Source of the DNA: Gammaproteobacteria bacterium
GTDB lineage: Bacteria > Pseudomonadota > Gammaproteobacteria > GCA-001735895
Direction: 5' to 3'
Length of the DNA stretch: 35,751 nucleotides
NCBI GenBank assembly: GCA_029864185.1
Contig: JAOTTY010000005.1
Coordinates: 1 to 35,751 of the forward strand
The position numbers and the translations under genes were made by a program. Shown in pieces: positions 24,171 through 35,138 of the stretch; positions within the stretch are counted from its first letter, which is position 1, and every line of letters starts with the position of its first letter. The notes below the pieces were generated by a model, which worked only from the letters and a program-made list of their open reading frames with translations, was not told where the DNA came from and did no database searches.

Positions 24171-24953
24171 TCACTGGGCTTTTGTATTAATGCTGCGCTT
24201 GCCTAACCACGCCGATAACTGGGCGTAGGCGAGCACGGACATGATTGGAAACAGGCTGGCAAAGGCGATAAGGCCAAAGCCGTCGAGCACGGGATTGCGG
24301 CCCGGTACGGTACTGGCAAGACCCAGGCCCAGCGCCGCAACCAGCGGCACGGTAACCGTCGACGTGGTGACGCCGCCGGAATCGTAGGCGAGCGCGATGA
24401 TCATGCGTGGTGCGAACATGGTTTGCAGCAGTACGAAAACGTATCCGCTAATGATATACCAGTAGAGTGGGGTGCCGGTGATAATGCGATATACGCCCAA
24501 CGCAATGCCGATCGCGACGCCGATGGCAACCGCGATGCGTAATCCCCAGATGCCGATACTGCCGGCCGAAACCTGGTTGGCCTTGATCGCGACCGCGAGC
24601 AGCGATGGTTCCGCGATCGTCGTCGAAAACCCGATGGCGAAGGCGAACAGGTAAACCCAATGGTAGTCCCGCCAGTCGAGAACCCTGCCGATTTGATCGC
24701 CGGCAACAAAACCCGGGTCGGTCAGCTGTTGCGCCATCAGGCGACCAAGCGGGAATAGCGCGGCTTCGAGACCTTCGAGGAAGAATCCGAGGCCGAGTAA
24801 TACCAGCACAAAGCCGGTAGCGATTTTTTTTAGGTTGGGGATCGGTTTACGCAGGATAACCAGTTGAAAACCGAATATAACCAGCACGATAGGCGCCACG
24901 TCCCAGACGGTATAGGCAATGGTGAAAAGCAGCTCTTCGAAAATGTGGACCAT
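24171..24953 (-). CDS. DUF1538 membrane protein, second copy
   Basis: A 260-residue polytopic membrane protein with roughly seven hydrophobic segments. It shares the DUF1538 landmarks with the gene at 24960: GFQLVILRKPIPN near 28-40, GFSTTIAEPSLLAV at 108-121 and [16 protein letters not shown] at 190-205, then [17 protein letters not shown]. The two TT motifs (TTIAEP and TTSTVTVP) sit in the middle and the second half, like the matched broken-helix motifs of transporters with internal repeats. The solute is unknown. It starts six bases after the first copy and leads into the PII-like gene. Confidence 0.85.
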   Translation of the reverse strand: MVHIFEELLFTIAYTVWDVAPIVLVIFGFQLVILRKPIPNLKKIATGFVLVLLGLGFFLEGLEAALFPLGRLMAQQLTDPGFVAGDQIGRVLDWRDYHWVYLFAFAIGFSTTIAEPSLLAVAIKANQVSAGSIGIWGLRIAVAIGVAIGIALGVYRIITGTPLYWYIISGYVFVLLQTMFAPRMIIALAYDSGGVTTSTVTVPLVAALGLGLASTVPGRNPVLDGFGLIAFASLFPIMSVLAYAQLSAWLGKRSINTKAQ

Positions 24954-24959
24954 GGCCGG

Positions 24960-25697
24960 TTATATCACCATGCCGTAACCCATGACGAAAATCATCGGCG
25001 TCAATGAAGCAAAGGCGATCAGTCCGAAGCCGTCGATTAGCGGGTTGCGTCCCTTGATCGAGCTGGCCAGGCCGACCCCGAGCGCGGTTACCAGCGGCAC
25101 CGTGATCGTGGATGTCGTAACCCCGCCGGAGTCATAGGCGATGCCTACGATTTCGTGCGGCGCAAAGAAGGTCATGACAACGACGCCGGTGTACCCGACC
25201 ACGATCAGGTATTGGATGGGCCAGCCCATGACAATGCGAAAAACACCGATAACGATGGCAAACCCGACCGAAAACGCGACGGTAAACCGCAATCCGAGTG
25301 CGTAGGACGCCATCGATTGTTCGTCTTTTTCGATCATCTTGCCGTCCGCGGCGACCAGCGCGGCCTCATTGGCGACCGCGGTCAACGCCGGCTCCGCGAT
25401 GGTGGTGCCAAAGCCGAGGGCAAACGCGAAACACAGCAACCAGAAGATATTGCCTTTGCTGGCGAACGCGTAGGCCATGGCTTCTCCGATCGGGAACAGA
25501 CCCAGGTTGAGGCCCTGCACGAACAGGGTTAAGCCGATGACGACGAATACGATGCCGAGCGCGATCTCTCCGAAGTTCGGAATGGGCTGCTGCAGCACCG
25601 CAAGCTGAAAAAATCCGATGACGACGATGATCGGGAGCAGATCGCGCAAACTTTCGAATAATGCCGACCAGATCGCCTTTAAAGACTTCATTAACAT
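24960..25697 (-). CDS. DUF1538 membrane protein, first copy
   Basis: A 245-residue paralogue of the next gene in the operon. Shared blocks: [28 protein letters not shown] at 95-108, [16 protein letters not shown] at 188-203, [18 protein letters not shown] polar insert at about 112-128 ([17 protein letters not shown]) between the halves is charged and differs from the second copy. Two adjacent, similar-sized, non-identical copies suggest a heterodimer. It is the first gene of the four-gene operon. ATG codons at 25697 and 25691 are both possible and neither has a good ribosome site. Confidence 0.85.
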
Positions 25698-25760: not shown

Positions 25761-25787
25761 CAAAAAAAAGCCCGCCTTGAGGCGGGC
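25761..25787 (-). terminator. Strong Rho-independent terminator of the ABC importer operon
   Basis: On the minus strand GCCCGCC pairs with GGCGGGC around a four-base loop, and eight T residues follow at 25769-25762. It ends the importer transcript and insulates the DUF1538 operon. Confidence 0.92.
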
Positions 25788-25826: not shown

Positions 25827-27485
25827 CTACTTATGTTTTTCCCTCGCTGCTTCGCCGATGTCATCGACACCGCGTTCTTCGAGCAGTGTCGTTAACCAGT
25901 CCGGATCCATTTCGGGCACCGAGGATAACAGCAGGTCGGTGTACTCATGATGCGGGGGTGTGAACATTTCATCCTTGGGCCCCTGCTCGACGACCTTGCC
26001 GTACTGCATCACCACGACTTCGTCAGCGATGGAACGCACCGTTGCCAGGTCATGGGTGATAAACATGTAGGACAGGTTCAACTCTTTTTGCAGCTTGTCG
26101 AGTAACCGCAGAATACCTTCGGCAACCAGTTGATCGAGCGCGCTGGTCACCTCGTCGCAAATGATAAAGGTGGGGCCTGCCGCCAGCGAACGGGCGATGC
26201 CGATGCGTTGTTTCTGGCCGCCGGAAAGCTCTGGCGGATAACGGTTGTAATACTGCGATGGATCCAGTTCGATCAGGTCGAGCAATTCGTCGACACGACT
26301 TTTGAGATCCGGCCCATGCAGGCCGCTGTAGAACTGGGCCGGTCGTCCGATGATTTCGCTGATCTTTACCTTTGGATTCAGCGCCGTATCCGCCATTTGA
26401 TAGATCATCTGGGCCTGGCGCAATTGATCCTTGGTGCGATTTCGATAATCCGGTGGCAGAGCCTGTCCCTTGAACAGAATCTCCCCGCTGGTCGGTGGCA
26501 GCAAACCGGTTATGCAGCGGGCTGTCGTCGACTTGCCCGAACCTGATTCACCGACGACGGCCACGGTCATCCCCTCGAAAATATCAAACGATACATCGTG
26601 CAATACCGGGGTGTCGCCATAGGATGCGTCGACATTCTTGACCGAAATCAGCGGCACGCCTTGGGTTGGCCTCGGTTTCTGTTCGCGTTTGAATTCACGC
26701 ACCGCCCACAACGACTTGGTGTATTCGTTCTTGGGATTCTCCAGCATGGTCCGGGTATCGGCTTCCTCTACCTCGTCGCCCTTGAGCAGAACCTTGATGA
26801 CGTTGGCCATCTGTGCCACCACCGCGAGGTCATGGGTAATATAGATCGCCGCGGTGTTGAACTGGTCGACGATATCGCGTATGGCCGATAACACCTCGAT
26901 CTGCGTGGTCACATCTAGCGCGGTGGTCGGTTCGTCGAAAATGATCAGATCGGGCCGACAGGCCATCGCCATGGCGGTCATCGCGCGCTGCAGCTGACCA
27001 CCAGATACCTGGTGCGGGTAGCGAAAACCGATTTCGCGCGGATTCGGCAGGCGCAGGCGCTCGTACAGCTCCATAGCGTCTTCCTGGCTTTCCAGACGCT
27101 TCTTGATTCGGTATTGAACCGGCGCCTCGGTATGCTGGTCGATCAGTTTATGTGCCGGGTTGAACGACGCCGCTGCCGATTGCGCGACGTAGGCGATCCG
27201 TGCGCCGCGCAAGCACTGCAGGTCTGATGCCGGCGTCGTGGTTAATTCCATGCCGTCGAATTCGATCGAGGAACCCTCGGAGATGCGGCAGCCATCGCGG
27301 GTAAAGCCCATGGCCGCAAGCCCGATGGTCGATTTGCCGGCGCCGGATTCACCGATCAGGCCCATGACTTCGCCGCGGTGCAGCGTCAGGTCGATACCGT
27401 GAACGATTTCGATCCATTTTTCATCCGAGTATCCTTCGATACGCAGATTCCTAATTTTAAGCAATACGCTTTTGTCTGCACTCAT
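25827..27485 (-). CDS. Fused double ATPase of a Dpp/Opp-type ABC importer
   Basis: A 552-residue protein with two full ABC ATPase domains, equal to DppD and DppF joined. Domain 1 has Walker A GESGAGKST at 45-53, signature VSGGQLQR and Walker B FDEPTTALD. Domain 2 has GESGSGKST near 315-323, LSGGQKQR and CDEVTSALD. Each domain has its H-loop histidine (ITHDLA). The C-terminal HHEYTDLLLSSVPEMD is typical of oligopeptide-ATPase tails. It drives uptake through the permeases encoded just upstream. Its ribosome site, GGAG, sits within the last codons of the previous gene. The strong terminator follows. Confidence 0.92.
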   Translation of the reverse strand: MSADKSVLLKIRNLRIEGYSDEKWIEIVHGIDLTLHRGEVMGLIGESGAGKSTIGLAAMGFTRDGCRISEGSSIEFDGMELTTTPASDLQCLRGARIAYVAQSAAASFNPAHKLIDQHTEAPVQYRIKKRLESQEDAMELYERLRLPNPREIGFRYPHQVSGGQLQRAMTAMAMACRPDLIIFDEPTTALDVTTQIEVLSAIRDIVDQFNTAAIYITHDLAVVAQMANVIKVLLKGDEVEEADTRTMLENPKNEYTKSLWAVREFKREQKPRPTQGVPLISVKNVDASYGDTPVLHDVSFDIFEGMTVAVVGESGSGKSTTARCITGLLPPTSGEILFKGQALPPDYRNRTKDQLRQAQMIYQMADTALNPKVKISEIIGRPAQFYSGLHGPDLKSRVDELLDLIELDPSQYYNRYPPELSGGQKQRIGIARSLAAGPTFIICDEVTSALDQLVAEGILRLLDKLQKELNLSYMFITHDLATVRSIADEVVVMQYGKVVEQGPKDEMFTPPHHEYTDLLLSSVPEMDPDWLTTLLEERGVDDIGEAAREKHK

Positions 27486-27490
27486 TTCGA

Positions 27491-28552
27491 TTACTCCTTC
27501 AGGCCGGACGACCGGTAAAGCATCCAGTCGACCACAAAGTTAACCGCCACCGTAAGCAAGGCTATCGCTGCCGCCGGTATCAGGGGGGTGATTTCGCCAA
27601 AGGAGATGAGCGTTGCATTCTCCCGCACCATCGAACCCCAGTCCGCGGTCGGCGGCTGGATGCCGAGTCCGAGGAACGACAGGCCGGCTACCAGCAGAAA
27701 TACGAAACAGAACTCGAGACCGAACTCTGCAATCAGGGGTGCCATCGAGTTGGGTAGTATCTCCTTGCGAATCAGGTACCAGGTGCCTTCGCCCCGGAGC
27801 TTGGCGGCTTCGATGTAGTCCATTACCACGACGTTGCCGCCAACCGATCTCGCCAGACGGAACACCCGCGGCGCGTAAATGATGGCGATGACGATGATCA
27901 GCGTAGTCGTATTCGTGCCAAAAATACTCAACAACAGCAGGGAAAAGATCAACGACGGAATCGACATGACCACATCCACCACCCGGCCGAGTAACTGGTC
28001 GAGCTTGCCGCCCTTGGTGGCCGCGTACAATCCTGCGGTAGCGCCCATCAAAAAGGCCAGAATGGTCGCCAGCAGCGCCAGGCCGACCGTGTTGCGGGCG
28101 CCGTAAATGATTCGGCTGAACATGTCCCGGCCCAGCTGGTCGGCGCCGAGCAGCATGTTTTCATCGGCAGGCGCAAACGCGGACGAAATTACCTCGGCCT
28201 CACCATAGGGGGCGATAATCGGCGCAAAGATACCGGAAATTGCGTAGGTGAAGATAACGAACAACCCGAACCCGGCCGTCAGCGGTGCGGTGCGCACTTC
28301 CTTGGCCATGTCTGTTGGCAGGATAATCACCAGGAATTCGCGGAACGAGTAGGAAACACCCGCGGAAAAGGCAATCAACCCGGCAAGCAGGGTAACCGCC
28401 CACAGCATCGCCTCCCCTCCGACAATCCCCATCACGAAGGAAACCAGGGTCAGCGAAAACAGCAGAATGAACGGGGTGCGCTTCTGATAGAAAGCGGCCA
28501 GCGATGAAGCGCCGATCAGGAGTGCGTAAAATCCAATGATAAAATAGTTCAT
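27491..28552 (-). CDS. ABC importer permease, DppC-type with N-terminal membrane extension
   Basis: A 353-residue permease. Residues from about 130 on are a standard BPD_transp_1 domain with the EAA loop YIEAAKLRGEGTWYLIRKEI. DppC proteins usually run to about 300 residues with one helix before the domain. Here residues 1-75 add roughly three hydrophobic segments (FIIGFYALLIGASSLAAFY, ILLFSLTLVSFVMGIVGG, LLAGLIAFSAGVSY) ahead of the normal first helix. The role of the extension is unknown. It is tightly packed with the permease and ATPase genes. Confidence 0.88.
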   Translation of the reverse strand: MNYFIIGFYALLIGASSLAAFYQKRTPFILLFSLTLVSFVMGIVGGEAMLWAVTLLAGLIAFSAGVSYSFREFLVIILPTDMAKEVRTAPLTAGFGLFVIFTYAISGIFAPIIAPYGEAEVISSAFAPADENMLLGADQLGRDMFSRIIYGARNTVGLALLATILAFLMGATAGLYAATKGGKLDQLLGRVVDVVMSIPSLIFSLLLLSIFGTNTTTLIIVIAIIYAPRVFRLARSVGGNVVVMDYIEAAKLRGEGTWYLIRKEILPNSMAPLIAEFGLEFCFVFLLVAGLSFLGLGIQPPTADWGSMVRENATLISFGEITPLIPAAAIALLTVAVNFVVDWMLYRSSGLKE

Positions 28553-28562
28553 GATTCAGCCC

Positions 28563-29528
28563 TCACTTCGGATGACGCAAGCGCGGGTTGGTCAGAATCG
28601 ACCCCACGTCGGCTGCCAGGTTTAGCAGGATGAAGGTTGCCGCGAATATCAGGCAGCAGGCCTGCACCACCGGAAAATCTCGCTTGGTTACGGCGTCTAC
28701 CAGCAATTGACCGATACCCGGGTAAACAAACACGACCTCGACCAGCACCACCCCGGTTACCAGGTAGGCAAGGTTCAGGGCGATGACGTTGATGACCGGC
28801 GCCCAGGCGTTCGGCAGCGTATGCTTGACGATTACCTTCCACGCGGGCACACCCTTGAGGCGTGCCATCTCCACGTATGGAGAGGCCAGCAGGTTGATGA
28901 TCGACGCCCGGGTCATCCGCATCATGTGTGCCACTACCACCAGTACCATGGTCAAGGCGGGCAGGAAGGTGCGATTGAGCTTGTCGAGCAGGCTCATGTC
29001 ATCGTCTATCTTGGCGATGGCTGGAAAAAATCCGCCTTTGACCGCGATGAACAGAATCAGCACGTAGCCGAGGAAAAATTCCGGTGACGATATCGACGTC
29101 AGGGTCAGTACATTGGCAACCCGGTCGAATACCGAATTCCTGAACAGCGCCACCGCGACGCCGAGGAATATGGCGACTGGAACCGCGATCAGTGCGGCAT
29201 AGACGGCCAGGAACAGCGTATTACCAAAGCGGGTACCGATGGCTTCCGACACGGGTGTTTTGGAAATCAGGGAATTGCCGAAATCACCTTGGATGGCATT
29301 GAACAACCACTCGAAGTAACGAACCGGAGCTGCCCGATCGAGACCGAGCTCCGTGCGCAGCGCCGCGAGGTTATCCTCGGTGGCACCCTGTCCCAGTACC
29401 GCCTGGGCAATATCGCCGGGTAGCAGTTCTACCGCGCCGAAGATGATGACCGAGATGACCAGGAGCGTGATGAATCCCAGCCCCAGTCTTTTCAAGACTA
29501 TTGATACAATATCGCCCATTGCAGGCAT
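28563..29528 (-). CDS. ABC importer permease, DppB-type
   Basis: A 321-residue integral membrane subunit. The N-terminus LKRLGLGFITLLVISVIIFG and LLPGDIAQAVLGQG are typical of DppB/OppB, and the EAA loop is EMARLKGVPAWKVIVKHTLP. About six membrane helices are visible, the last before DVGSILTNPRLRHPK. The ATG at 29528 has GAGGGG close before it; an ATG three codons later is also possible. It follows the binding-protein gene after a 127-base gap with a hairpin, and lies ten bases before the second permease. Confidence 0.92.
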   Translation of the reverse strand: MPAMGDIVSIVLKRLGLGFITLLVISVIIFGAVELLPGDIAQAVLGQGATEDNLAALRTELGLDRAAPVRYFEWLFNAIQGDFGNSLISKTPVSEAIGTRFGNTLFLAVYAALIAVPVAIFLGVAVALFRNSVFDRVANVLTLTSISSPEFFLGYVLILFIAVKGGFFPAIAKIDDDMSLLDKLNRTFLPALTMVLVVVAHMMRMTRASIINLLASPYVEMARLKGVPAWKVIVKHTLPNAWAPVINVIALNLAYLVTGVVLVEVVFVYPGIGQLLVDAVTKRDFPVVQACCLIFAATFILLNLAADVGSILTNPRLRHPK

Positions 29529-29655: not shown

Positions 29656-31266
29656 TTATGCGAACCACCAGCGATGGTAGCCACGCCCGCCATCGAGCTC
29701 CCAGCTCGATGCCAGGCTGGGCCCGTGTTGCACCTTCTTGTTTCGCGCATATACAAAATTCACGAAAATCGGAATGACGGTACCGCCGTCGTCCCGCGCC
29801 AGCTGGCACATTTCGCGATACTGCTCGGCGCGCCGCTGCTCATCGAGTTCCGCCTTGGCGATCAGCAGCAGTTCATTGAAACGCTTGTTCTGCCAGTGCG
29901 ACTCGTTCCATGCGGCATCATCCTTGTAAGCCAGCGTAAACATGTTGTCGGGTGTCGGGCGCGCGCCCCACTTGACGAATGTCCATGGTTTTTTCAACCA
30001 GACATCCGACCAGTAGCCGTCGTTGGCTTCGCGCTTGACGTCGATCTGAATGCCCGCCTTTTTGGCATGTTCGCTGTAAAGCACGCACATGTCGACCGCG
30101 CCTGGCAGAATGCTGTCGGCCGCCGACAGGCTAACCTTGAGCGAACTCACCCCGGCTTTCTTCAGGTGAAACTTGGCCTTGTCGGGATCATAGACCCGCT
30201 GGGGAATATCCTTGGGAAAATAGGGCATGCCGGGAGAAACGTGAAAATCGTTACCAGGGGTCGCGGTGCCAAACATGATTTTCTCGACTATATCCTTGCG
30301 GTCGACGGCGAGTTTGAGCGCCATTCTTACATCCACGTTGTCAAAAGGTGCGACATCGCAAAACATCGGCATCGTAATCGCGGATCCGCTGGGTACGTTA
30401 TCCACCTCGATATTGGGATTGCGGCCGAGCAGGGCTACCGTTTTCAGGTCGACCGAGGTAATCGCATCGACATCGCCGGTAATCAGCGCGGTCTGGCGCG
30501 CGTTCGGGTCGTTGAGGCCCAGCATTTCGATTTCGTCGAAATAGGCGCCCTCTCGATGCCAGCCGCCGTGCCGCTCGAGCGTGGTGCTAATGCCGGGCTT
30601 GTGATTGGTAATCGCGTAAGGGCCTGCGCCGGTCTGGCTTTGCCAGTCAGCCGTGCCGTCGGATTTGGCCGGCAGCATGACCAGGTGGTAGTCCGTCATG
30701 ACCCAGGGCAGGTCGGCAAATCCCTGGTTGAGTTCGATCACGATGGTATGGTCGTCTTTCGCCTTGATATCGGTGACGGTGGTCAGCAATGCCTTGGCCG
30801 CCGAAGTCGATTTTTCGCCGCGGTGATGGTTCAGCGATGCAATGGCGTCGGCGGAGGTAAATTTCTTGCCATTATGGAAAGTCGCGTTCTTGTTGAGCTC
30901 GAAGGTCCAGACCTTGGCATCGGGCGATGCGCTCCAGGAATCCGCCATGTCGGGCCCCAATCCGTTTTCAGGGGTAATTTCGGTAAGGTAACTGCGGTGG
31001 GTATGCGCGAGCTGAATCATGCCGACACTCTGGTAGGTGCCTGGATCAAAGGTATCGGAGGTATTCACATCGTGTACCCCGACCCTGAATTTGCCGCCCT
31101 TTTTAGGAGTTGCCGCGGCCACTTCGCTGGTCCACAGACCGGAAGCGAGGGGCACGGACATGCCTGCAGCGACGGCAAATCGCATGAAATCGCGTCGCCC
31201 CAGCTTGCCGTTTTTGGCATCGCGAGTCAGCAACTCTTTGAATTCTTTCTTGGAACTATCGGACAT
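29656..31266 (-). CDS. Periplasmic solute-binding protein (family 5) with Tat signal
   Basis: A 536-residue DppA/OppA-type binding protein. The N-terminus has a twin-arginine motif, LGRRDFMRF at 22-30, then AVAAGMSVPLASG and a likely cleavage near SEVAAA (47-52). Thus it is exported folded by the Tat system. The family 5 body shows LTEITPENGLGPDMADSWSA, KNATFHNGKKFTSADAIASL and RMALKLAVDRKDIVEKIMFG. It delivers the solute to the permeases. Family 5 proteins bind peptides, nickel, opines and amide compounds, so the ligand is open. It follows the M24 gene on the same strand. Confidence 0.92.
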   Translation of the reverse strand: MSDSSKKEFKELLTRDAKNGKLGRRDFMRFAVAAGMSVPLASGLWTSEVAAATPKKGGKFRVGVHDVNTSDTFDPGTYQSVGMIQLAHTHRSYLTEITPENGLGPDMADSWSASPDAKVWTFELNKNATFHNGKKFTSADAIASLNHHRGEKSTSAAKALLTTVTDIKAKDDHTIVIELNQGFADLPWVMTDYHLVMLPAKSDGTADWQSQTGAGPYAITNHKPGISTTLERHGGWHREGAYFDEIEMLGLNDPNARQTALITGDVDAITSVDLKTVALLGRNPNIEVDNVPSGSAITMPMFCDVAPFDNVDVRMALKLAVDRKDIVEKIMFGTATPGNDFHVSPGMPYFPKDIPQRVYDPDKAKFHLKKAGVSSLKVSLSAADSILPGAVDMCVLYSEHAKKAGIQIDVKREANDGYWSDVWLKKPWTFVKWGARPTPDNMFTLAYKDDAAWNESHWQNKRFNELLLIAKAELDEQRRAEQYREMCQLARDDGGTVIPIFVNFVYARNKKVQHGPSLASSWELDGGRGYHRWWFA

Positions 31267-31309
31267 CAGAATATCTCTCCTCGGTTTTATCTAGTTGTTA
31301 GAATTCCAA

Positions 31310-31325
31310 ATACAACAGGTTGTAT
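31310..31325. promoter_or_regulatory. Perfect palindrome upstream of the importer operon
   Basis: ATACAACAGGTTGTAT is a perfect 7-2-7 inverted repeat 44 bases upstream of the binding-protein start. It is a plausible repressor or activator site. A second imperfect repeat, ATTAC-CCGT-GTAAT, lies at 31332-31345. No regulator gene is adjacent. Confidence 0.5.
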
Positions 31326-31430
31326 AAGGTTATTACCCGTGTAATGGTACCTGATTGTCATCAATTATTCGACCCATGTGGATAAATCAAATCTATAACA
31401 GTGCGTCGAATCAGGGTTAGGGACAGGATC

Positions 31431-31445
31431 GCCCGGTGTCCGGGC
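31431..31445 (-). other. Short GC-rich hairpin after the M24 gene
   Basis: GCCCGG and CCGGGC pair around a TGT loop just past the M24 stop. No T run follows, so it is a weak terminator or pause site. It may partly separate the M24 gene from the importer operon. Confidence 0.35.
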
Positions 31446-31453
31446 TAAAGACG

Positions 31454-32614
31454 CTAGCGAACGATCAGGGTCTGCGGCGTATTGCTGGTCAGGTTGACCG
31501 CGCCGCCGTCGGTCAGCATTACGGTATTCGAGATAAAGTAATCGACCACGTCGGTGTTGGTAAACCAGGAATGCGCGTGAAAGGTCATACCGACCTTAAT
31601 TTCGCGCGTGCTGCCGGGTTGCAGGCTCGTCACCATGCTGCCGCCGGTCCAGCTGGGCGGAAAGCCGATGCCGACCATGTAGCCGCAGTGGTGCCGGTGA
31701 TAATCGACAAGCCCGGCGCTGTCGGCCACGTCTTTCCAGGCCTGGTAGACTTCGCCCGCCGTCGCGCCAGGCCTGAGCGCATCGCAGATAGCCTGCATGC
31801 CGCGAATCGCGAGCGCTGCCGATTCTTCTGCACCCTTCGGCGCGGCGCCGACGTAAACCAGCCGGCCCATCGGCGCCTGGTACTTGCGATAGGCGCCGCC
31901 GATTTCGAGAAACACGGCATCCCCGTTGTGAAACACGTCGCCGCGCCAGGTGGTATGTTCTTCGCCGAGGCGGGTGGTCGGGCGAATAAACGGCCCGAAT
32001 CCCGGGTACTCGCTGCCGGCAAGGATCATCGCACGGTTGCATTCGGCGGCTATTTCGTAGTCGCTCGCGCCGTCGCGAATCGCGTCGATTGCCGCCAGCG
32101 TGCCGGCATCTGCCGCGGCCGCGGCCCTGCGCGTGTAGTCCTGCTCGAGCGGAGATTTAACCAGCCGCAACTCGTCGATGATGCCCGAGCCATCCGACCA
32201 GTCCGCCTTGGGAGCGCCCGCGATTATCAATTCGTAGATGCGCGGCGTCATGAACAGGCTGCGCTTTTCGATACCGAGCCGGGCCCGGGACAGGCCCCGG
32301 TCGGCGAGCATCTTCAGCACGTAGTCGGACAGCTCCTCGGTATCGGCATGGCCGTAAAACTCGGCGTTTCCGACCTGGTTTTCGACGGTGATGCGTTCCA
32401 TCGCGCGGCAGGCGAGCGCAAGCGTTCCTTCGACAGGTACCACCAGTACGTGGCAGGCAAAAAATCCCCAGTGATCGAGACCGGTAAGATAATAGATATT
32501 CTCGGGCACGGAGACCACGAGCGCATCGATGCCACGGACTTTCATCACAGCTCTGACCCTGTCCAGTCGCTGACGTAGTTCCGATTCGGAGAACACTTCC
32601 TGGCGCGTCACCAC
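31454..32614 (-). CDS. Creatinase/ectoine-hydrolase-like M24 (pita-bread) enzyme without usual metal ligands
   Basis: A 386-residue protein of the M24 fold. Residues 8-140 form the creatinase N-terminal domain (GIDALVVSVPENIYYLTGLD), and 155-386 the pita-bread catalytic domain. The five ligands of metallo M24 peptidases appear lost: the first Asp is Glu237 (FLEIGG), the second falls in YQAPMGR, the His motif reads HHCGYMVGIG, and the Glu sites read MTFHAHSW and FISNTV. The same pattern, FLEIxGxYRxY, is seen in ectoine hydrolase (DoeA) and creatinase-like enzymes, which cleave C-N bonds in small osmolytes without two metals. Position upstream of the binding-protein gene suggests that it processes the imported compound. 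Confidence 0.85.
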   Translation of the reverse strand: MVTRQEVFSESELRQRLDRVRAVMKVRGIDALVVSVPENIYYLTGLDHWGFFACHVLVVPVEGTLALACRAMERITVENQVGNAEFYGHADTEELSDYVLKMLADRGLSRARLGIEKRSLFMTPRIYELIIAGAPKADWSDGSGIIDELRLVKSPLEQDYTRRAAAAADAGTLAAIDAIRDGASDYEIAAECNRAMILAGSEYPGFGPFIRPTTRLGEEHTTWRGDVFHNGDAVFLEIGGAYRKYQAPMGRLVYVGAAPKGAEESAALAIRGMQAICDALRPGATAGEVYQAWKDVADSAGLVDYHRHHCGYMVGIGFPPSWTGGSMVTSLQPGSTREIKVGMTFHAHSWFTNTDVVDYFISNTVMLTDGGAVNLTSNTPQTLIVR

Positions 32615-33897: not shown

Positions 33898-34809
33898 CTA
33901 TTGTTGCGTAACCGTCAGGGTTCTCGAGTTCTTTCGGTTGAGAAAATCGATCGCCCTGTTTTCGGCATCATCCCCGAACAAGAACATGGTCATGTGTCCG
34001 CGCCAGTTGTGCAGGTATAGCTCGGTTTCGACGCCGCGTTGTTTCAGCGCCTCGTAATAGTCGGTCGCCTGGTCGTCGGTGACCAGAAAATCGAGTTCGC
34101 CATGGTAGAGGAATACCGGAGGATCGTCGGCGGAGATATGGTAGACCGGTGATGCCTGCGCGTAGCGATCGGGCATTTCATCGCGGTCGCCACCCATGAA
34201 ACGCGTGACGACGGGGCTGCCGCTGTATTTGCGCAGGTCCGACGGAATACCGCCGGCGACCACGGCCCTGACGCGTGGCAGGGAATCCCCGCCGCCAGCC
34301 GGCGGTCCGACCGAGTCGATACTGGCAACCAGCGCCGCCAGGTGGGCGCCGGAAGAATAGCCCCAGGTGTTGACGCGGTCCGTATCGAAATTAAAGCGAT
34401 CCGCGTTTTGCGAAATCCACGCCAGCGCCTGCTGCAGGTCCTGCAGCTGTGCGGGGAAGGTAAAGCGTGGTGCAAACCGGTAACTGACGTTCATTACCGC
34501 GTAACCGTGCCGCACCAGTTTGCGACTGACGTCGACCATGTCGTCGCGGCTGCGATTCGCCCAGCCACCGCCATGTATCACCAGCACGACGGGATGCGGA
34601 CCGCGCTTGCGCGGCAGGTACAGATCCGCGCGCAGCGGTTGCGGCCATGATTCTTCGGTATAGACGATGTTTTCGACGGTACGCTCGAGCGTGTAGGCGG
34701 CATCGGCTGGCGGCTCCTGGTTGTGGTCGCGCAGGTGCGTATAGCAGCCCGACAGCATCGCGCACAGGAGTAAAAGGAGCGAGCCTTGCGGCAAACGGGA
34801 ACGAATCAT
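33898..34809 (-). CDS. Lipoprotein alpha/beta hydrolase (BD-FAE/esterase type)
   Basis: A 303-residue lipid-anchored serine hydrolase. MIRSRLPQGSLLLLLCAML leads to the lipobox LSGC with Cys22. The catalytic domain has the oxyanion HGGGW (IHGGGWANRS), nucleophile GYSSGAH, acid in GELDFLVTDDQ and His in NWRGHMTMF. It resembles esterase/acetylxylan or kynurenine-formamidase-like enzymes; the ester substrate is unknown. I chose the ATG at 34809 because it gives a standard signal peptide; ATG at 34848 is possible. It is a single gene, facing the cytochrome unit. Confidence 0.83.
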   Translation of the reverse strand: MIRSRLPQGSLLLLLCAMLSGCYTHLRDHNQEPPADAAYTLERTVENIVYTEESWPQPLRADLYLPRKRGPHPVVLVIHGGGWANRSRDDMVDVSRKLVRHGYAVMNVSYRFAPRFTFPAQLQDLQQALAWISQNADRFNFDTDRVNTWGYSSGAHLAALVASIDSVGPPAGGGDSLPRVRAVVAGGIPSDLRKYSGSPVVTRFMGGDRDEMPDRYAQASPVYHISADDPPVFLYHGELDFLVTDDQATDYYEALKQRGVETELYLHNWRGHMTMFLFGDDAENRAIDFLNRKNSRTLTVTQQ

Positions 34810-35138
34810 GGCAGGGGCCGACGGTTTACTTGCTTGAACATTTGGCATTGTATACGCGAGCACATAGATCCTGGATCAGGCAGCACGCCTGGAAAACGCC
34901 GGTTTGCGGGTCGGTTCAATTCAGAAACTTGCCGCGAACAGGCTGCCCGGGAGTGAGCCCGACGAAGAGGCGGCCGATCCGATGCGTGGCAGCTGCTAGG
35001 GTGAGGGCTGGCGGCCGCGCTGGATCACCGGGAATGGTGCACCGGGCGCGGTAGCCGCACGACGATCTAATCGGCGACGAAATCTCACAATCGCTGCTGT
35101 ACCTGTGCGCTTTGACCGATGAATATTAAGCCGGTCGA
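34810..35138. other. Intergenic region, no gene seen
   Basis: About 330 bases between the esterase and the partial permease, both on the minus strand. No frame shows family-like content, and no clear terminator or palindrome stands out. Confidence 0.35.

Follow-up and report, generated by a model that had tools for sequence, protein, structure and literature searches.

The window analysed here, a 35,751-nucleotide stretch of a gammaproteobacterial genome (assembly GCA_029864185.1, contig JAOTTY010000005.1), encodes on its minus strand a metal-ligand-free hydrolase of the M24 fold, followed by a complete family-5 ATP-binding cassette (ABC) importer. What might such a pair be for? Our slight preference is that the M24 protein is a metal-free hydrolase of the DoeA/EutD type that opens a cyclic amidine resembling but distinct from ectoine, most likely one that is N-methylated and has a formyl-derived ring carbon, and that the linked importer supplies this solute. 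The loss of the metal site, the DoeA-type residues, the fold, the clade and the repeated occurrence beside importer, ectoine and sarcosine-oxidase genes are seen computationally; from them we infer the activity and substrate of the M24 protein, the methyl and formyl groups of that substrate, and what the importer carries. The original prediction for this locus was that enzyme and importer may form an uptake-and-hydrolysis route for an amide or osmolyte, and comparison with other genomes supports it, DoeA being the nearest solved structure in sequence and in modelled fold.

An active site of the DoeA type

Could the M24 protein be what its annotation implies? The gene (31454..32614, minus strand), called from its open reading frame (ORF) and Pfam, encodes 386 aa from a GTG start whose first codons are uncertain. 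Pfam describes the product as Creatinase_N plus Peptidase_M24, and its relatives are annotated 'Xaa-Pro peptidase family protein', as would suit a metal-dependent Xaa-Pro peptidase served by a peptide importer. However, alignment in P. furiosus prolidase numbering shows all five M24 metal ligands replaced, D209 by E237, D220 by P248, H284 by Y312, E313 by H348 and E327 by S362, just as the original prediction held for this protein. We take D209, D220, E313 and E327 to be ligands in prolidase, and H284 to be the histidine ligand by homology to methionine aminopeptidase (MetAP) and aminopeptidase P. No NCBIfam peptidase model reaches its cut-off against the protein, no close member of its clade that we met is a known metallopeptidase, and the nearest solved structures are those of DoeA. 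On the replaced ligands we reject a metal-dependent peptidase, which we regard as very improbable.

The original prediction likened the loss of metal ligands to that in ectoine hydrolase or creatinase, and it is the first of these likenesses that stands. DoeA (6twk) carries E, P, Y, M and T at the same five positions. Its E255, H238 and Y263 correspond to E237, H220 and Y245 of the window protein, which are identical in 27/27 members of the clade; E255 is reportedly catalytic in DoeA (Mais et al. 2020). For creatinase we assume His232, Glu262, Glu358 and Arg335 to be catalytic, their positions having been checked by sequence against 1chm. The catalytic histidine, presumably matched by His220, is kept, whereas E262, E358 and R335 are replaced by G250, H348 and G325. 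As aligned, the active-site residues are DoeA-like, not creatinase-like.

Sequence and predicted fold point the same way. The nearest solved chain by sequence is DoeA 6twk (phmmer 3e-43, versus 5e-22 for prolidase 1pv9 and 6e-9 for creatinase). The predicted model (predicted local distance difference test, pLDDT, 90.1) finds DoeA 6twk as its best Foldseek match (E 3.9e-33, template modelling score, TM, 0.90), and structural comparison of the model gives Z of 43.5 to DoeA, 38.2 to the best prolidase and 38.0 to creatinase 1chm. The protein is thus modelled as a pita-bread fold with a creatinase N-terminal domain, at Z 33-43 to M24 structures. Since sequence, fold and site are all of the DoeA kind, the window protein probably works like DoeA.

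Is it then simply another DoeA? An extra ectoine or hydroxyectoine hydrolase, acting on DoeA's own substrate under a different importer or regulation, would explain the retained DoeA-type residues, and we consider it unlikely, although less so than the other alternatives. The protein is 27-29% identical to DoeA-type proteins and scores far below both NCBIfam DoeA models (NF038259, 214 of 575 bits; TIGR02993, 186.3 of 613 bits). Twenty alignment positions separate its clade from the DoeA group, with invariant differences inside conserved DoeA motifs: DHWGFFACH stands for DGWSFY.., RHHCGY brings two extra His, and PSWTGG stands for PDW-GER. Such changes are what would be expected if the substrate differs from that of DoeA. 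Confidence in the model is lowest at the PSWTGG loop, where residues 320-326 have pLDDT under 50. In a 45-row tree, which includes long branches flagged by the tree program, the window protein lies in a 27-row clade (100/99), outside the DoeA clade and beside 12 rows of DoeA and M24b sequences (100/99), to which it is joined weakly (88/52). Its own-genome paralogue L006 is not among the 45 rows, and L005 was excluded beforehand for a doubtful frame. Because of the family cut-offs and its place in the tree, we do not class the window protein as DoeA.

A Tat-type family-5 importer follows the M24 gene

As originally predicted, the M24 gene lies just upstream of an importer operon, whose permease and ATPase genes extend beyond positions 29656-32614. 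All genes are on the minus strand: a Tat-type family-5 extracellular solute-binding protein (29656..31266, 536 aa, from its ORF and Pfam), a DppB/OppB-like ABC permease (28563..29528, 321 aa), a DppC/OppC-like ABC permease with an N-terminal extension (27491..28552, 353 aa) and a fused double ATP-binding subunit (25827..27485, 552 aa). Pfam finds SBP_bac_5 in the binding protein, BPD_transp_1 in both permeases, and two ABC_tran domains and oligo_HPY in the ATPase, so that every part of a family-5 (Opp/Dpp/Nik) importer is present. The gaps from M24 through binding protein, permease and permease to ATPase are 187, 127, 10 and 5 nt; those of 10 and 5 nt indicate tight coupling of the permease and ATPase genes, and the M24 and binding-protein genes may have separate promoters.

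Dependence of the binding protein on twin-arginine translocation (Tat) had been proposed, and the comparison bears this out: R24, R25 and F27 of its twin-arginine motif GRRDFM, which we take to be a Tat motif, are invariant in 12/12 aligned binding proteins. The protein is far below every NCBIfam equivalog cut-off. Its predicted model is poor (pLDDT 53) and was left unused for the pocket.

Does position alone explain the pair? Operon economy alone might have brought the M24 and importer genes together, with peptides, an opine or a metal chelate as the importer's cargo and an internally made compound as the substrate of the M24 protein. Such ligands are the usual ones for family-5 binding proteins, the best solved matches of the window's are AgaA, AapF and NikA-like proteins, and the 187-nt gap leaves room for a separate promoter. 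Other lineages have the M24 gene near Ehu, near a DctP-type binding protein (L021) or away from any recognised importer. What speaks against operon economy, and makes it improbable in our judgement, is the recurrence of the arrangement.

The predicted link between M24 and binding-protein genes does recur: the binding-protein gene follows M24 in 12 of 23 genome loci (L008-L016, L020, L027, L028). In seven of these (L009, L010, L012, L015, L016, L020, L027) permeases and ATPase follow too; in the other five the contigs end early or inside the importer. One of the twelve, L020, is from an alphaproteobacterium (Neomegalonema) with M24 and then an importer of the window type, and the linkage therefore crosses two bacterial classes. 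Between its M24 gene and the importer, L020 also holds a decayed copy, without a clear start, of a 71-aa protein of the rhizobial clusters described below (38% over 68 residues), a further point against mere economy. The linkage is beyond chance. We note separately that the binding-protein gene of L012 (L012:10346-11653) is in three frames with the rest of the operon intact, through decay or assembly error. L020 also encodes, on the other strand, a second family-5 binding protein (L020:3083-4651; 45% identical to the window's) near choline-dehydrogenase-like and glutamate-dehydrogenase-like genes.

The distribution of the M24 gene is patchy. It occurs in 13 of the 57 genomes of our 'relatives' set, all 13 within the window's genus, and in 1/5 genomes of the family of the SAR116 genome; sampling recovered 2 clade members among 385 alphaproteobacteria and 1 among 369 gammaproteobacteria, centre genomes included. 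Overall, M24 is linked to family-5 ABC genes in the 12/23 loci above and to EhuABCD in L018, L057 and 16/16 rhizobial plasmid loci. Two kinds of importer thus go with a single M24 clade: Ehu in rhizobia and L018, the family-5 system in the window's genus and L020. By their shared position beside it, the two importers would carry the same class of substrate.

Rhizobial and other clusters

A tblastn search gave 16 rhizobial plasmid records with M24, and EhuB-C-D-A and the sarcosine oxidase genes SoxB/SoxA flank it in all 16. In nine of these loci (about 69% identity) the aspartate dehydrogenase gene and ehuABCD run divergently from M24. From M24 on, the nine encode the 71-aa protein, an AtzE-like amidase, SoxBDAG and an aldolase-like pyridoxal phosphate (PLP) enzyme. 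Further along come a Ser/Thr dehydratase nearest threo-3-hydroxyaspartate ammonia-lyase and then PurU (positions that in L093 are outside the stretch compared), with FolD and RidA in two. A DoeA-like M24b gene precedes M24 in six loci (about 50% identity), three of which, all Sinorhizobium, continue EutB-EutC-DoeA-DoeB-PurU. In the sixteenth (38% identity), Sox and Ehu occur together with a gene annotated as DoeA. Beside the M24/Ehu/Sox cluster, two Mesorhizobium plasmids (L072:4799-7720, L074:4811-7691) also encode a Rieske-type ferredoxin (MocE in L072), a sterol-desaturase-type protein and a flavin adenine dinucleotide (FAD) oxidoreductase; these genes presumably resemble rhizopine mocDEF.

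These clusters bear on two alternatives. A creatinase-type enzyme, likewise a metal-free M24 protein, would free sarcosine from creatine or another N-methyl guanidino compound for use by sarcosine oxidase and one-carbon genes. The rhizobial succession of M24, sarcosine oxidase, aldolase-like PLP enzyme, Ser/Thr dehydratase and formyl-tetrahydrofolate deformylase fits a path from sarcosine to glycine, and we retain this alternative because the rhizobial clusters alone would permit a sarcosine-releasing substrate. The three substituted creatinase residues, the greater closeness to DoeA in sequence and fold, the ectoine-synthesis genes that flank M24 in cyanobacteria and the EutBC/DoeA genes near it in several lineages speak against it, and we think it has only a small chance of being right. 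An extra ectoine hydrolase, for its part, would fit the presence beside M24 of EhuABCD, the annotated ectoine/hydroxyectoine importer, at all 16 rhizobial loci, as it would the DoeA/EutBC neighbours. It would also be redundant, given the DoeA-like genes in L022, L026, L030, L057, L068-L070 and L095, and ectoine needs neither sarcosine oxidase nor methyltransferase.

Ectoine-type neighbours recur elsewhere. EhuBCDA lies immediately upstream of M24 in L018, its EhuB nearest to 2q88, which we take to be EhuB; L057 has a DoeA-like gene, EhuBCDA, EutB and M24 (50%). In L026 and L030, EutB, EutC and a DoeA-like gene lie some kilobases from M24, L026 adding EutA and DoeB. A DoeA-like gene is directly downstream of M24 in L022, and an EutA-like gene (198.7 of 318 bits) is upstream of it in L020. 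The DctP-type binding protein of L021 was considered as ectoine-specific and set aside: its nearest solved chain is 4mco, 2vpn (presumably TeaA-type) reaches only 52 bits, and we claim no specificity for it.

The window's own genome has a separate DoeA-like/DoeB-like/EutB/EutC locus on contig C404, whose M24 protein is probably DoeA-like, to judge from the tree and from its DoeB-like and EutC-like neighbours. On contig C293 an M24b gene accompanies a succinate-semialdehyde dehydrogenase (SSADH)-type aldehyde dehydrogenase and a class-III aminotransferase.

Cyanobacterial clusters with a formyltransferase

In Hydrocoleum (L023) and Okeania (L024), EctB, an EctC::formyltransferase fusion, a small methyltransferase and then M24 (62%) lie on one strand. 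The L023 EctB scores 621 bits against a cut-off of 552, and the EctC domain 161 bits against 128. The formyltransferase domain retains an N..H..D pattern that we take to be catalytic. Queried with the EctA of a canonical cyanobacterial ect cluster (L058), the Hydrocoleum and Okeania genomes (G057, G058) gave no match, and the query was recovered in its own genome as a control. In a third cyanobacterium, G1280, the EctC and formyltransferase genes are separate but side by side, with EctD and EctB close by. It appears from these gene contents that the formyltransferase replaces EctA, a candidate route to 2-desmethyl-ectoines. Ectoine-type clusters with a formyltransferase fused or next to EctC and a methyltransferase or EctD-like gene span L023:4067-7434, L024:978-4560 and L079:9280-14196.

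EctC-formyltransferase occurs in 3/61 genomes of that cyanobacterial family, and M24 in 1/386 sampled cyanobacteria (the centre genome only). With both so rare, their meeting within about 1 kb is hardly chance, though it is seen in one lineage. The role of orphan EctC is described as unclear, with substrates related to acetyl-diaminobutyrate possible, in PMC5924519 and PMC6344544.

Proposed function

Why a methylated, formyl-derived ring? The rhizobial cluster combines an amidase, sarcosine oxidase and one-carbon enzymes, and the cyanobacterial cluster would be its reverse, with formyl transfer, ring closure and methyl transfer. That the two, independent of each other, agree points to an N-methylated, formyl-derived ectoine. 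In the proposed route, the Tat-exported binding protein and its ABC importer would bring the solute in, in place of the EhuABCD of other lineages, and the M24 protein would open the ring metal-free by means of E237 and H220. By analogy with the rhizobial clusters, the N-acyl (formyl) group may then be removed by an amidase, the N-methyl group oxidatively by sarcosine oxidase with transfer of the methyl to tetrahydrofolate, and the product could enter diaminobutyrate/aspartate metabolism. These later steps are not within the window locus.

Several observations weigh against this reading. The N-methyl idea is drawn from other lineages and not from that of the window, neither ectoine nor sarcosine-oxidase genes adjoin the window M24, and in five (L017, L019, L021, L025 and L029) of the 12 loci that lie outside the window's group no ectoine gene was recognised near M24. 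Sarcosine-oxidase homologues occur in 31/31 genomes of the window's genus, and co-occurrence within the genus was dropped as a non-discriminating test. Given the DoeA-like locus elsewhere in the genome, the enzyme of the window may be redundant. To these we add the usual ligands of family-5 binding proteins and the fit of the rhizobial clusters to sarcosine release, both noted above. As for the cyanobacteria, the link comes from one lineage, and a search of G1280, which has EctC plus formyltransferase, found no M24. The Okeania formyltransferase frame is interrupted, and the Hydrocoleum EctC domain has Tyr in place of an iron-ligand His, a residue named in PMC6344544.

We further suggest, tentatively and with more doubt than belief, that an N-methylated 2-desmethyl-ectoine is a natural compatible solute, made by the filamentous marine cyanobacteria Okeania and Hydrocoleum and eaten through the M24 clade by the window's genus, SAR116, other alphaproteobacteria and nodule rhizobia. 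Its synthesis from diaminobutyrate would use EctB, EctC and a methyltransferase, with a formyltransferase replacing the acetyltransferase EctA, and consumers of the window's genus would take the solute up by the dedicated family-5 ABC importer. Mono-N-methyl 2-desmethyl-ectoine is by our arithmetic an isomer of ectoine (C6H10N2O2), and could therefore have passed for ectoine in mass-spectrometry surveys. A literature search, with most subscription journals outside it and its sources available in part, returned no N-methyl or desmethyl ectoine, no EctC-formyltransferase and no pairing of ectoine with sarcosine oxidase. PMC2996178 gives the sponge alkaloid N-methylmanzacidin C as the only other reported case of a natural tetrahydropyrimidinium ring.

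Proteins of the M24 clade are currently annotated as Xaa-Pro peptidases. If the proposed function is right, the clade would mark the first catabolic step for an ectoine-like solute in marine gammaproteobacteria, SAR116 and cyanobacteria and on rhizobial symbiotic plasmids. It would also point to a biosynthetic counterpart in which a formyltransferase has the place of EctA, making the existence of a new osmolyte directly testable, and a family-5 importer otherwise annotated as a peptide or nickel transporter would gain a substrate class.

Neighbouring features

A terminator-like hairpin with a T run, seen by eye in the gap sequence, lies between the ATPase gene and umpA (25762..25787, minus strand) and suggests that the importer transcript stops there. 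Beyond it is an UmpA/UmpB-like DUF1538 pair (24171-25697) whose scores against Na,Li,K/H antiporter models stay under the cut-off; with the hairpin in between, we left umpA/umpB out of the operon. UmpA/UmpB-like genes likewise lie downstream of the importer in L009 and L012. On the other side, a BD-FAE alpha/beta-hydrolase (33898..34863, minus strand), with a lipoprotein-like N-terminus that presumably contains a lipobox, is only possibly part of the system. Its gene is upstream of M24 in 6/23 loci and directly adjacent in five (L010-L014); a cytochrome c gene intervenes in the window and L008.

Comparison with known systems

How does the window system relate to those already described? DoeA/EutD (PDB 6twj, 6twk, 6yo9) shares with the M24 protein the pita-bread M24 fold, the replaced metal ligands and the Glu/His/Tyr set, and the window's clade is often encoded with EhuABCD, EutB/C or DoeB; unlike DoeA, the protein falls in a separate supported clade with its own motifs RHHCGY and PSWTGG. 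Creatinase (1chm) is likewise a metal-free M24 enzyme with the catalytic His, and sarcosine oxidase is linked to the window's clade in rhizobia, but the window protein does not have the presumed catalytic Glu262/Glu358 and Arg335 and is more distant in sequence and fold. As in the Ehu-Eut/Doe clusters, an uptake system sits beside a metal-free M24 hydrolase and the importer type varies by lineage; the window differs in its Tat-exported family-5 (peptide/nickel-type) binding protein, and the rhizobia in adding sarcosine oxidase. The importer has the SBP_bac_5, paired BPD_transp_1 and oligo_HPY parts of Opp/Dpp/Nik systems, from which its Tat signal, fused ATPases and link to an ectoine-type hydrolase set it apart. 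EctB and EctC of the cyanobacterial loci score as such; unlike ectABC, these loci have a methyltransferase and a formyltransferase that is fused to EctC (adjacent in G1280), and the EctA search of G057 and G058 gave no match.

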